The position numbers and the translations under genes were made by a program. The notes below the pieces were generated by a model, which saw nothing but the letters and a program-made list of their open reading frames with translations, had not been told where the DNA came from and did not search any database. Shown here piece after piece: positions 5,981 through 22,432 of a DNA stretch of 52,400 nt. Each line of letters starts with the position of its first letter. Within the stretch, counting starts at the first letter, position 1. This stretch comes from Paludibacteraceae bacterium (GTDB lineage: Bacteria; Bacteroidota; Bacteroidia; Bacteroidales; Paludibacteraceae). The stretch spans positions 1-52,400 of the forward strand of contig JAFYZR010000045.1 of the NCBI GenBank assembly GCA_017557345.1, read 5' to 3'.

Positions 5981-7873
5981 TTATTTTTTGAGAAGTTGTT
6001 GATTAAATTGTTTCAATGTTTCAAGCACGTTGCAACGGATATGGATGAAGTTCTGGATGCCGAGCTTCTGGAGGTCCTCCATGCACGCCGGGGCACCGGC
6101 TACGATGAAGAGCTCCTTCTTGCCCTGCAGCTTCTTCCACGCCTTCGGCGCGAGGTCAGCGTACTCGTCGTCAGACGAACAGAGGACGATGATGTCCGCT
6201 TTGGCCTTGCGTGCCGCCTTGATACCCTCGGCGATGGTCGCAAAACCGTTGTTGTCGATGACCTTGTATCCCGCACACGCGAGGAAGTTACAACTGAACT
6301 GCGCACGCGCAATACGCATAGCGAGGTTGCCGATGGTCAGCATGAAGGCGATAGGTTGCTTCTTAGCGGCCTCGGTCTCCAGACGGAGTGCTTCGAACTC
6401 CTCTGCGGCACGAGCAATAGGAAGGGTCGGAAGGGCTGGAGTCTCGCAAGAACCGGCGCAGCCGCATGCTTTCGACTTTCCACTTTCCACTTTAATCTTC
6501 TTCCCTGCTTTCTCGGTGAAGTTCGGGAACTGGTTCGAGCCGAGCAGCACCTCTTTGCGCTTAGCCACATCGCCCAAACGCGCTTTTAGGTTAGCCGCCA
6601 TGGCCTCCTGCACCTTACCCTCACTCACGAGCTGGAACATACCGCCCTGCTCCTGAATGGCGAGGAACTGCTTCCATGCCTCGGCTGCCAGCGAGGCCGT
6701 CAGGTTCTCCAGATAATACGAACCCGCTGCCGGGTCTACCACCTTGTCGAAATGCGCCTCTTCCTTGAGCAACAGCTGCTGGTTGCGTGCGATACGCTCG
6801 CTGAAGTCCGTCGGGTCCTCGTAGGTCACGTCGAACGGCGTCACGGTGATCTCGTCCACGCCTGCTAATGCTGCACTCATCGTCTCCGTCTGGCTGCGCA
6901 ACAGGTTGACATACGCGTCGAAAATAGTCATGTTGAAACGGCTCGTCTCCGCACTCACGTTCATCTTCGCTGCATTACGCAACGCGGTGGTGAAGATAGG
7001 CTGCTTGTACGCCTCTACGATCTTCGCCCACAGCAACCGGCCGGCACGGAACTTGGCAATCTCCATGAAGTAATTGCCGCCGATGCCCATGTTGAAACGG
7101 ATGGCGTTCGCTGCACGGTAATTGGGCACACCCGCCTCCGTCAGCATCGTCATGTACTCGGCACCCCAAGCCAGCGCGTAAGCCAGCTCCTGAGCCGCGT
7201 AAGCACCCGAGTTGTTCAGGATCACGCTGTTCACAGCCACCACGCGGTAGTTAGGCAGCGACTTGGCAGCCTTCACCACCTCGGCTATCTTGGCACTCAC
7301 CTGCTCGCGCGTCAACGCCTTGCCTTTCAGTAACATGCCTTTGATCGGGTCCACGTTGATTGAACCCACCATGTGCTTCGTGTCGTAACCCATGCGACCG
7401 TAGTAACGCACCAGAATGTTCGCCAGCTCAGCCGCCTTGCACGGGCAGATGCTGAAGTTGATAGCGATGCAGTCAGCCGCGATGCCGTTCAGCAAAGTCT
7501 TGATGAAATGATAATTGAGTTTCTCGTGATCGAGACAGAAACCCAGCGAGTTGATGCCTTTGTTCAGCACCTCCAGCGCTTTCGCGTTCGCCTTGCGCGC
7601 ATTCTTGCATGCGCAGATGTTCTGACGAATCGCCCAGTCGTTGGTCGTGCGGGTGCCGCGTACATAGGGGAACTGGCCGGGAGCGGAGACGGTGGTCTTC
7701 AAACCCTTGAGGTCCTCGCGGCGGTAGAAAGGCTGGACGCTGAAGCCTTCCGGCGTGCGCCACACGAGCTTCTTGTCAAAGTCCGCGCCTTTGAGATCGG
7801 CGATGATTTTGTCCTTCCATGCCTGAGCCGACACCGGTGCAAAATCCGCCTGCAAATTCAATTTTGTTGCCAT
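5981..7873 (-). CDS. mutA: Methylmalonyl-CoA mutase, small subunit
   Basis: 630 residues, within the family range. It is the non-catalytic partner of MutB: the barrel domain is kept ([27 protein letters not shown]), but the C-terminal flavodoxin-like domain has [10 protein letters not shown] where MutB has DxHxxG, so it should not bind cobalamin. That is normal for MutA. The linker before the C-terminal domain contains an odd [18 protein letters not shown] stretch at about 456-473; its DNA carries a short 7-bp repeat (6473-6500), probably an in-frame array insertion. It is the first gene of a two-gene operon with its own promoter at 7924-7955. No cobalamin riboswitch is visible upstream. Confidence 0.96.
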
Positions 7874-19430: not shown

Positions 19431-21728
19431 TCAACGAACCTCTTGACCGGTGACGGTGTACGTCTTATCCCCGCGAAGGATGAAGATTTGGCCATCGCGG
19501 ATGACCTTAGTAGCCTCTCCCCAGCCCTCCCCTGAAGGGAAGGGAGTGTTGCCAATGCCTGTTGGGACTTGCTCGCCGGTGGTGGTGAATTCGCCGGTAT
19601 AGGAAGCAAGTACGGTCTCTTGGTCATCCTTGGCAGTAAGTGTAAAGGCATAATGCGTGCCGCTGTTAAGTCCCGTGACGGTGAACTGCATTCCATTGGC
19701 GGTAAGAGTAGCTTGTTGTGTTTTGCGTGAACCATCTTTGGATGGAGCGAAAGCGATGCCAGTCAGTTGACCATTGCCATTGAAAATCAAGGTGCAGAAG
19801 ACTACTCCGTCTTTGGTGATTTGAATCGTATAAGAAGCGGCATTGTCGTCTGTCGGCCAAGTCATGGTGGCAGTGTTGTCCGTTGGTTCCACAGTTACCT
19901 GATTGGTTGAAACGGTTGTTCCTTCTGCGCCAATGGATTCTACATAATAGAAATCTCGCCAAACAGAGGCATTCTTGTACATATCAATCGAACTCGGCAG
20001 AACGTACAGTTTGCATTCAAACTTATCCACTCCGTCGAAGGCGGTGCTGTACGCATTGGTCGGCGTCGGGCGGTAGTTGAAGATGGTCTCAAGGTTCACG
20101 CAGTTATAGAACGCGTTGTTATAGATGGTCTTTACCGACTCGCCGATGGTTACTTTCTTCAGCGTGCTGATACCCGCGAAAGCGTTTTCGCCGATGGCGG
20201 TGACGTTATTGCCGATAACGAGTTCTTCCATTTCGGTTGGTGCTTCTACGCCAAACTGCATATTTTCTGTAAACTCGCCGGCATTGCCGATAGTCAGCAC
20301 TTTGTTAGTCGGGTCATATGACCAAACCAATGCGAAATCTTTTCCGCAAGTTCCTACTCGGTCATATGTAAACTCTGCCGTAAAGGTCGTGTCCTTGGTT
20401 ATCTGGAAAATACGCGGGTTATCTTTGAGACCATCCGACCATTGAGTGAAATGATAACCGTAATCGGGGACAACGGTTAGTGTCACATAATCCAAGTATT
20501 CCGCAGAATTATTTCCGGATATAGAGCCGTGCTCGGCGTTTTTAGTGATTGAATATACATTCTTCGCAAAAGTAGCGGTAAAGGTTGTATCTTGTGTTAA
20601 GATAAAAGAACGCTGTTGGGATGTATTACCATCACTCCATTTAGCAAAGTGATACCCATAATTGGCTTGACATGCAAGATACACTTCGCTTCCTGCGTCA
20701 AAAGAGCCGACAGACTCATTGTATTCGATTGTCCCTGCTTTGACTACTTTAGAGATATAGCCACTACCTCTTGCAGCATCAGCACTCTGTACATTCACAG
20801 AGAATTTAGGCGTTTCAAAATAAGCGGTGTAATTGGCATTACCGTTTGTGGTAATGGTTCTTGGATTGTCGGTGTTGCCATCTTGCCAACGAACAAAATG
20901 AGACCACTGGTCACTATTGGCAGTCATTATTGTAAGTTGGCCTCCATGTAAACCAATAAAAGTCTGGTAGTCGTCGCATCCACTGGAGTAAATGCGGATA
21001 GTGTCATTGTCATTCTCTAACGTGCTAAGAGATGGTAGTAGTACAGGCCGCACGGATTGTCCGTAGTAGCGGTAGTAGCCGCTGAGGATGTCGTGGTAGC
21101 CCGAATTGAAGTACAAGGACCACGCGAGGCTCGAGCCGCTCTCGTTGAGCGAAGACGACCAATAGTCGCCGATGGCGCCCACAACGTAGAAGTCGCCCCC
21201 CTCGGAGCGGCAGCTCGCTGCGGGAAGAAAAATGAACTTGTCCGTGTAACCTGCTTTATTACTCGTGACCTTATAACCGTTTATTCCATTCTGTGTAGTC
21301 CACGTCCAGGTGCAGTTGTCATAAAGTTCCTGCCATTCCGCCTTGGTCGGCATTCGCCAACTACCGCCCCAATTAACATGAGCGGCATCGTCTTGCGGGT
21401 CAAGAACAGTTTTGCCACCATCATTATTGTACTTCATAAATGGACTACCTCCATCGTTGATATCAAAATAGGTGGACCAATTGTAAGTCTCTTTAGTAGA
21501 GGTTTCTCCCCAAGCATAGTAGTTGCCATAGCCTTCAGGGGATTCAGCACCCACATTCATATTTGCCCATTTGACACTGAGACCAAGATCCACAGCCTGG
21601 GCAGCTTCGGGAGGAATTGCTTTTACCACTTGTCCATTTAGCCCACATGTTTGATGGACGGTAATAGTTTGTGCCTGAAGGAGCGTTGCTCCCACAACAA
21701 GCACGGAAAAAAGAATTGATTTCTTCAT
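19431..21728 (-). CDS. Large secreted FISUMP / InlB-repeat / BspA-LRR / Fn3 protein with C-terminal tag
   Basis: 765 residues with signal peptide ending near LLQAQ. A FISUMP (Fibrobacter succinogenes major paralogous) domain spans about 44-230 (VDLGLSVKWANMNVGAESP, WRMPTKAEWQELYD, WSSSLNES, ending GQSVRPV). InlB-like and divergent beta repeats follow at about 250-460 (GYHFAKWSDGNT, GYHFTQWSDGLKDNP), then BspA-type leucine-rich repeats at about 485-600 (IGENAFAGISTLKKVTIGES), an Fn3-like domain at about 620-725, and a tag ending ILRGDKTYTVTGQEVR. This is a surface or secreted adhesin-like architecture; the ligand is unknown. Residues 178-229 have a codon pattern like a diversity-generating-retroelement target. 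No promoter of the usual type is seen in the 41 nt upstream. Confidence 0.85.
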   Translation of the reverse strand: MKKSILFSVLVVGATLLQAQTITVHQTCGLNGQVVKAIPPEAAQAVDLGLSVKWANMNVGAESPEGYGNYYAWGETSTKETYNWSTYFDINDGGSPFMKYNNDGGKTVLDPQDDAAHVNWGGSWRMPTKAEWQELYDNCTWTWTTQNGINGYKVTSNKAGYTDKFIFLPAASCRSEGGDFYVVGAIGDYWSSSLNESGSSLAWSLYFNSGYHDILSGYYRYYGQSVRPVLLPSLSTLENDNDTIRIYSSGCDDYQTFIGLHGGQLTIMTANSDQWSHFVRWQDGNTDNPRTITTNGNANYTAYFETPKFSVNVQSADAARGSGYISKVVKAGTIEYNESVGSFDAGSEVYLACQANYGYHFAKWSDGNTSQQRSFILTQDTTFTATFAKNVYSITKNAEHGSISGNNSAEYLDYVTLTVVPDYGYHFTQWSDGLKDNPRIFQITKDTTFTAEFTYDRVGTCGKDFALVWSYDPTNKVLTIGNAGEFTENMQFGVEAPTEMEELVIGNNVTAIGENAFAGISTLKKVTIGESVKTIYNNAFYNCVNLETIFNYRPTPTNAYSTAFDGVDKFECKLYVLPSSIDMYKNASVWRDFYYVESIGAEGTTVSTNQVTVEPTDNTATMTWPTDDNAASYTIQITKDGVVFCTLIFNGNGQLTGIAFAPSKDGSRKTQQATLTANGMQFTVTGLNSGTHYAFTLTAKDDQETVLASYTGEFTTTGEQVPTGIGNTPFPSGEGWGEATKVIRDGQIFILRGDKTYTVTGQEVR
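21042..21197 (-). other. Candidate DGR-type variable region at the end of the FISUMP domain
   Basis: Within the FISUMP gene, codons 210-222 (21063-21101) are thirteen consecutive NNC codons encoding GYHDILSGYYRYY. Further runs of NNC codons (GGC GAC TTC TAC; GGC GCC ATC GGC GAC; AGC GGC) lie between constant framework codons such as TGG TCG TCT TCG CTC AAC. This is the pattern expected from adenine mutagenesis of AAC codons in a template repeat, and it ends at the conserved SVRPV as DGR targets with this fold do. Codons just outside use mixed third bases. No template repeat or reverse transcriptase is in the window. Confidence 0.6.
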
Positions 21729-21769: not shown

Positions 21770-22432
21770 TCATGATTTGTAACTATTTAGCTCTTTTTTA
21801 TATTTATTGAAATGATAAAATCTTATAATTAGCATAATAACTATGAAGACGACAAAGGATGTGATAAATATGCAATGGCATGTATTATGTATGTGCACAT
21901 CGTGATAGTAATTACAAACTTTGCAATAAGTAATGAAAAAGATTCCCAAAAAAGTTACAACAAGCCATCTTGCAAAAATATCATATGGTCCTTGAACGAA
22001 ATCGCAAAAATTCTTTTGATCTGCATTTCTATAGTATTGAGGAAAAATTTTCTCATCTATTTTTCCAAAGTATGCTTTTTCGCGAATCTTATTAATTTGA
22101 ATTTGTTCTCTTCTTTGTTTTGTACCAATATAAACAGAGACAGAGTATAATATTAATATTATAAAGAAGGAAGCGACTGATACAAACATCAAATCCTGAA
22201 CATAGAATCCAGAATATTTCATCATCGCGCATACTTTACTATTTTCATCCAAAGCTTCTATGGCATGCAGAATTTCGAAATTCATATGAATTAAAACATA
22301 TCCATAAAAACCTATGATTCCAACGAAAGTAACCAATAATGCCATAAAGTTACTTAAATTGGAATTGTTATTTACAGCGTACTGTTCATGTAATTGCAGT
22401 TCTAACTGTTGTCGCATTTCTTCGTCTTTCAT
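21770..22432 (-). CDS. Unknown four-TM membrane protein
   Basis: 220 residues; not recognised. The hydrophilic N-terminus (KDEEMRQQLELQLHEQYAVNN) is followed by TM segments at about 29-50, 79-103, 155-178 and 185-207. Between TM2 and TM3 is a basic region of about 50 residues (TKQRREQIQINKIREKAYFGK). The C-terminus is short and basic. The gene is notably AT-rich compared with the housekeeping genes around it, which hints at transfer. It sits 41 nt upstream of the FISUMP gene on the same strand, and downstream of a highly structured non-coding stretch. Confidence 0.6.
   Translation of the reverse strand: MKDEEMRQQLELQLHEQYAVNNNSNLSNFMALLVTFVGIIGFYGYVLIHMNFEILHAIEALDENSKVCAMMKYSGFYVQDLMFVSVASFFIILILYSVSVYIGTKQRREQIQINKIREKAYFGKIDEKIFPQYYRNADQKNFCDFVQGPYDIFARWLVVTFLGIFFITYCKVCNYYHDVHIHNTCHCIFITSFVVFIVIMLIIRFYHFNKYKKELNSYKS

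Follow-up and report, generated by a model that had tools for sequence, protein, structure and literature searches.

DUF1566 and Fib_succ_major domains are already known as targets of diversity-generating retroelements (DGRs): in a 2014 analysis of human microbiomes, 47 and 9 such proteins, respectively, are given in Table 2 (PMC4159848). Incomplete loci and action in trans are known as well. In Thiohalocapsa PB-PSB1, DGR loci 1, 3, 4, 5 and 7 are described as incomplete DGRs or remote targets, some of them best explained by trans action (PMC10907252). A large DGR survey started from the reverse transcriptase (RT), and imperfect repeats were sought within 20 kb in the procedure outlined there (PMC8144416). 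Because such a survey is anchored on the RT, orphan variable regions (VRs) like the one described here would escape it. A literature search for DGRs with FISUMP returned nothing, the domain appearing in papers as Fib_succ_major or DUF1566, and no paper turned up for 'orphan VR' combined with diversity-generating retroelement, which says little about what is in print overall. What is new here is a set of related genomes with fresh VRs, recognized by their codon pattern, in which no template or DGR RT was detected.

The gene, its domain and its codons

The window (the whole stretch of 52,400 nucleotides analysed) belongs to a Paludibacteraceae assembly, called G000 below, which consists of 155 contigs and is not a closed genome. 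The features discussed are collected in Table 1.

Table 1. Positions of the VR, its gene and the related features. Positions without a contig or locus name are those of the window.
Feature	Position	Strand	Basis or remark
Variable-protein gene, 765 aa	19431..21728	(-)	ORF and domain searches; signal peptide by eye
FISUMP/Lcl_C-like domain	21033..21602	(-)	profile matches
VR, LPAA... to ...SVRPV	21042..21227	(-)	limits set by homology to templates of DGRs in the genus
Thirteen consecutive NNC codons, GYHDILSGYYRYY	21063..21101	(-)	opposite the asparagine-rich core of known templates
Nearly constant VR end, GQSVRPV	21042..21062	(-)	codon alignment
InlB-type B-repeat (PF18998), best match of three stretches	20361..20555	(-)	downstream of the VR
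BspA-type leucine-rich repeat (PF13306)	20025..20234	(-)	profile match
Neighbouring gene	21770..22432	(-)	95% identical homologue also adjoins the VR gene in L043
Second DGR-type VR	G000:C73:22578-22754 (gene L289 6570-7688)		C-terminus of a 373-aa protein, apparent signal peptide
Third DGR-type VR	G000:C45 ~7390-7570 (gene L358 6796-10410)		internal to a 1205-aa protein, apparent signal peptide
Inverted repeats behind cassette VR genes	L129 6045-6110; L359 6103-6154; L296 5478-5547; L297 5307-5374

The encoded protein starts with what looks by eye like a signal peptide, followed by the FISUMP/Lcl_C-like domain with the VR, InlB-type B-repeats, a BspA-type LRR and an fn3-like domain, the last matched below cut-off. 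The B-repeats lie downstream of the VR, which places it inside the protein. A surface protein of a gut-type Bacteroidales bacterium is predicted. The gene next to it has its close homologue beside the VR gene of L043, so the two loci look orthologous, with differing VR residues.

The domain had been proposed to be of FISUMP type. It does match FISUMP (TIGR02145) and Lcl_C/DUF1566, but both only under the curated cut-offs (27.5 bits vs 41.65 and 24.8 bits vs 34.9, respectively). From this similarity and from the account of such targets in PMC4159848, the fold is probably C-type-lectin-like. The AlphaFold2 model of 21033-21671 had a mean pLDDT of 86.8 and a pTM of 0.83. A sequence-profile search of solved structures with the window domain gave no significant match.

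The run of 13 consecutive NNC codons on which the original prediction was built was borne out by the codon count. These are codons 210-222 of the gene, in which NNC runs elsewhere reach 6 codons at the longest. Given the amino acids of the run, the chance of 13 C-endings is 5.6e-7 according to codon frequencies taken from 30 ORFs of the window; by the same frequencies, NNC occupies 36 of the 58 codons of 21042-21215 vs 18.5 (SD 3.4) expected. Shorter NNC runs are present too, as is the constant framework described before SVRPV. The variable segment had been placed at 21042..21197; this stretch is VR, but the extent is larger and homology to templates reaches ~21227. The GQSVRPV end lies where the homing-initiation site sits in known DGRs, which we take to be its role.

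Related genes, complete cassettes and template adenines

Public genomes were searched with the window domain. Eighty-seven relatives were confirmed, and the best 80 of the 87, corresponding to 79 distinct loci, were used. The domain was matched in 44 of the 101 genomes searched (the window's own included), at up to 12 places per genome. FISUMP-like domains thus form large paralogous families, which favours an explanation with no DGR, in which codon bias, recombination between paralogues or positive selection made the pattern. Some paralogue sets without the signature overall, for example that of G014, point the same way.

The closest homologues (L042-L048, 69-77% identical) were found in MAGs named Paludibacteraceae or Bacteroidales, the sources named including red deer and sheep rumen. 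Their genomes are G203, G114, G117, G153, G007 (with both L046 and L047) and G122. These six genomes, G000 and G199, which has a further close VR, make up the eight genomes of group A. The window gene and L042-L048 were aligned by codons (eight genes from seven genomes, G199 being left out). Identity at codon positions 1, 2 and 3 was 0.63, 0.64 and 0.87 in the VR vs 0.92, 0.92 and 0.77 upstream. Where amino acids differed, the third base was the same in 649 of 747 VR comparisons vs 285 of 450 upstream. The framework codons TCG, CTC, GCG, TGG, TTG, TTC and CGC were almost unchanged across the eight genes. L048 is partly degenerate and was omitted from the third-base totals; without it, third bases differed in 618 of 2422 comparisons upstream (497 of 2109 at the same residue), in 28 of 336 in the 5' part of the VR and in 82 of 696 in its 3' part.

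As a control, 49 homologues, mostly from Prevotella or Prevotellaceae, were chosen from 83 distinct segments by a length of 44 and the motif NRFSGR. Identities of 0.81, 0.90 and 0.55 at positions 1, 2 and 3 gave the usual pattern of selection on the protein. Chance codon bias was ruled out by this control together with the codon-usage probability. The ordinary pattern of the control, the fixed third bases with randomized positions 1 and 2, the spared framework codons and the match to adenines of real templates (see below) all stand against the explanation with no DGR, which we judge very improbable. To our knowledge, none of codon bias, paralogue recombination and positive selection yields such a combined spectrum. 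The signature of conserved third bases and randomized first and second bases detects VRs without a template. FISUMP-like paralogues of G014, G063 and G078 were considered as orphan VRs and rejected: where residues differed, the third base was the same in 0.28, 0.46 and 0.48 of cases vs 0.30, 0.33 and 0.29 upstream, the signature being present at most in part of the G063 and G078 sets.

Complete cassettes were found in four genomes of the genus (G025, G147, G049 and G055), in the order VR gene, accessory gene, template repeat (TR) and RT. Three of the target proteins were scanned: the G049 protein had a below-cut-off match to Fib_succ_major (E 1e-4), the G055 protein matched Lcl_C with an E of 0.7 and the G147 protein had no match. 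The cassette targets are called homologous to the window protein because of their VR and framework. The accessory genes code for 170-189 aa; two of the four proteins gave a weak match to MutS domain I, below cut-off (E 0.002 and 0.009), and the other two none. MutS-like accessory proteins occur in DGRs; a literature search for them found no paper. All four cassettes have inverted repeats behind the VR gene, with arms of 22-32 nt (raw count). These repeats might be homing hairpins or instead terminators; the Bordetella phage BPP-1 depends critically on hairpins of such a kind (PMC3240598). Behind the window VR, no inverted repeat of at least 7 bases was found within ~180 bases, and L046 alone among the eight group A genes has one (18 nt).

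In the G025 cassette (L129), the VR is in the homologous domain and TR and RT lie together; TR and VR mismatch at 25 sites, 24 of which are adenines in the TR. G147, G049, G055, G057, G037 and G018 likewise have a TR next to an RT, giving seven genomes with G025. These seven real TRs are those of other genomes and were not derived from the window, whose own template is not among them. When the window VR was compared with the G025 TR, 32 of 50 adenines were changed vs 33 of 127 other bases (p=3e-6). At the AAY codons of this TR, the third base was kept in 16 of 17 and the first or second base changed in 15 of 17. The other six TRs all gave an adenine excess (p from 2e-6 to 1e-3), with the AAY third base kept in 15/21, 13/19, 10/16, 15/19, 17/22 and 15/18. 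Differences at non-adenine bases are expected, since the comparisons cross species and the alignment was protein-guided. The changes in the window VR are thus concentrated on the adenines of seven real templates of other genomes; they are also concentrated on those of a template inferred from the group A alignment, a comparison that is partly circular.

Other DGRs were seen as well. One in the genus, L133 (G057:C40:10000-19000), has TR, VR and RT, with 20 of 22 mismatches at A, and its target has by eye the look of an FGE-sulfatase-type protein (RGGSW...GFRVV). L131 (G060:C2:10500-20000) lies among genes that are phage-like by eye, and its TR-VR mismatches are at A in 15 of 15 cases. In G147, RVT_1 matches twice on C23 and three more sites are template-like (L359 and L361 on C23, L360 on C38); this is perhaps a multi-target or two-element case.

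The segment ~21042-21227 is therefore very probably the VR of a DGR. Adenine-directed mutagenesis, named from the outset as a possible source of the NNC codons, agrees with variation on template adenines, with fixed third bases, with the excess against all seven TRs and with same-genus DGRs that have homologous targets. An error-prone RT would have copied a template with many AAC codons and placed varied bases opposite the template adenines. The cDNA would then have replaced the VR part of the gene, so that about twenty positions of the surface domain became NNC codons. The machinery would have been like the cassettes of the genus, with a target gene, a weakly MutS-like accessory gene, a template and an RT. 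Points against this reading are the failure to find a template or DGR RT in the assembly (see below), the missing inverted repeat, the internal position of the VR and the 33 of 127 other bases that differ from the TR of G025, the nearest complete DGR; such differences fit a comparison across species but fall short of a clean TR-VR pair. We infer the DGR mechanism in the window organism, any current activity and the fate of the element (lost, or missed by the assemblies) from these patterns and from those given below.

Search for the template and the reverse transcriptase

A remote template and RT had been expected elsewhere in the genome; neither was found in the G000 assembly. PF00078 (RVT_1) at E<=10 matched only one group II intron RT. 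The latter (G000:C14:10215-10600, L001) gave two overlapping matches in two frames and is apparently broken. Used as query at E<=10, the G025 RT had no match in G000 or in 14 other genomes and matched itself in G025 alone. PF00078 at E<=0.001 matched 35 of 178 genomes of the genus, and within group A G000 alone, by its group II RT. G018 is absent from this list though its RT was seen by tblastn, so six of the seven genomes in which a TR adjoins an RT were recovered. Nothing in G000 matched the accessory protein at E<=1.

A DNA search of G000 for the cognate TR with the inferred template found the VR itself and the VR on C73; four of the seven first candidates were scored. The 14-base core AACAACAACAAYCG was selected because it is common to the seven known templates (7/7 there by construction). 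The exact core was absent from group A (0 of 8 genomes) and from four others (G014, G017, G078 and G063). With one mismatch allowed, it had three matches in G000 vs two for the control. When a hidden template in G000 was searched for with the VR itself, five other matches with E of 0.8 to 5 were obtained and taken as chance; a short motif gave three matches with 3 mismatches vs 9 for the control. Matches on C73 and C45, obtained with the inferred and G147 templates as queries, were rejected as hidden templates since they turned out to be VRs.

G000 thus holds three VRs on different contigs. Compared with the G147 TR, which fitted both best, the C73 VR had 26 of 53 adenines changed vs 10 of 118 other bases, and the C45 VR 32 of 53 vs 21 of 115. 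The excess was weaker with the other six TRs (p 1e-5 to 0.07 for C73 and 1e-6 to 0.01 for C45). The C-terminal tail of the C45 protein resembles that of the window protein. Contamination of G000 is estimated at 6.84%. Tetranucleotide correlation with the window was 0.889 for C73 and 0.925 for C45, near the 0.919 obtained for a 20-kb part of the window itself (a part-whole value) and higher than the 0.25 to 0.78 of eight loci from other genomes, so the two contigs probably come from the same organism. These correlations speak against C73 and C45 being contaminants, although they do not prove the point. Two further FISUMP-like homologues in G000 (C127:1746-2057 and C71:6592-7107) are not VR-like by eye.

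Outside the genus genomes, none of 72,556 plasmid and 50,697 phage records matched the inferred template at E<=1e-5. Among IMG/VR viral contigs, a generic template motif occurred in 115 stretches, none of them close to the group A template; the best-scoring stretch and the inferred template are 76% identical along 97 bases. A group-A-like template motif was found in none of these contigs. Protein relatives of the domain were sought in viral contigs, and none of the five stretches obtained was confirmed.

The window VR is an orphan VR, with no detectable template or DGR RT in G000 and seven close relatives. Two observations had been named beforehand as speaking against a DGR, namely a lack of RT and template and a lack of variation confined to template adenines. 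The former holds for this assembly, but adenine-confined variation is present in the between-species comparison.

Fate of the element and comparison with known systems

Comparing third bases in the VR with those upstream suggests whether rewriting outlasted the species split. In the window gene, 1 of 48 third bases in the VR was off the majority vs 21 of 110 upstream (Fisher p 0.002). L042 (0/48 vs 10/107), L046 (1/48 vs 17/109) and L047 (3/48 vs 22/108) were also fresher than upstream, the p values of the four genes ranging from 0.002 to 0.02. The deviations in L043 (3/50), L044 (6/49), L045 (4/50) and L048 (8/49) were not significantly below upstream rates. The last rewriting of the window VR looks recent. 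Its fresh third bases indicate that this rewriting probably postdates the species split, and in those lineages where the VR is fresher than upstream, rewriting probably continued after the genes had diverged. The element that rewrote it is probably since lost, unassembled or extrachromosomal.

Recent loss, to which we assign an even chance, supposes a chromosomal cassette in the clade that lost its template and RT through separate deletions in several lineages, leaving a VR that is now frozen. The complete cassettes of G147 and G055 do sit among genes that look chromosomal by eye (valS-, metK- and htpG-like). The VRs of L043, L044, L045 and L048 look decayed in their third bases, and the rarity of inverted repeats behind group A VRs, that of the window included, fits as well. 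In G007, a truncated accessory gene (C12:10507-10914) lies directly behind one of the VR genes and is followed by genes that look ribosomal by eye; no TR or RT was found behind it, and the truncation points to cassette decay. This reading has to accept separate late losses, given the freshness of the window, L042, L046 and L047 VRs. If the element was lost, this clade offers an example of a hypervariable surface protein that has become frozen.

In the other reading, an element missed in the assemblies or bins (a plasmid, a phage, an integrative element or a strain-variable island) rewrites several chromosomal VRs in trans. We regard this as possible, somewhat short of even probability. It would account for several VRs being fresh in genomes that all lack the template core, and for the three VRs on different contigs in G000. 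VRs of G025 on other contigs fit the TR of that genome, with mismatches at adenines in 20 of 23 (L130) and 20 of 25 (L137) cases, but the paralogues L135 (23/48) and L136 (25/51) fit it poorly. Trans action and RT-intact variants within a population have a precedent in Thiohalocapsa (PMC10907252). The plasmid, phage and IMG/VR searches above and the chromosomal look of the G147 and G055 cassettes count against it. Late loss is placed slightly ahead of trans action from an unassembled element. Rewriting from a mobile replicon, if true, would be an uncommon arrangement. That fresh chromosomal VRs throughout a whole Bacteroidales clade are rewritten in trans, by a shared template and RT on an element missing from assemblies, we hold to be unlikely; RT-anchored surveys would be unable to link such a shared diversifier to its targets.

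The mechanism proposed for the window is the adenine-specific mutagenic homing of the BPP-1 DGR; the latter is a phage element with a hairpin behind its VR, whereas none was found behind the window VR (PMC3240598). The targets in PMC4159848 have the same domain type as the window protein but were found by a search for DGR systems. In the two examples given there the domain is at the end, whereas the window VR is internal and neither template nor RT was found for it. The Thiohalocapsa PB-PSB1 loci concern other proteins and another phylum, and matching templates or RT-intact variants are reported for them (PMC10907252). The DGR of G025 differs from the window locus in carrying its template, accessory gene and RT together on one contig and in a VR gene that ends just after the VR; it shares with it a homologous domain and the framework YWSSSL...AW...F...R..G.SVRP.
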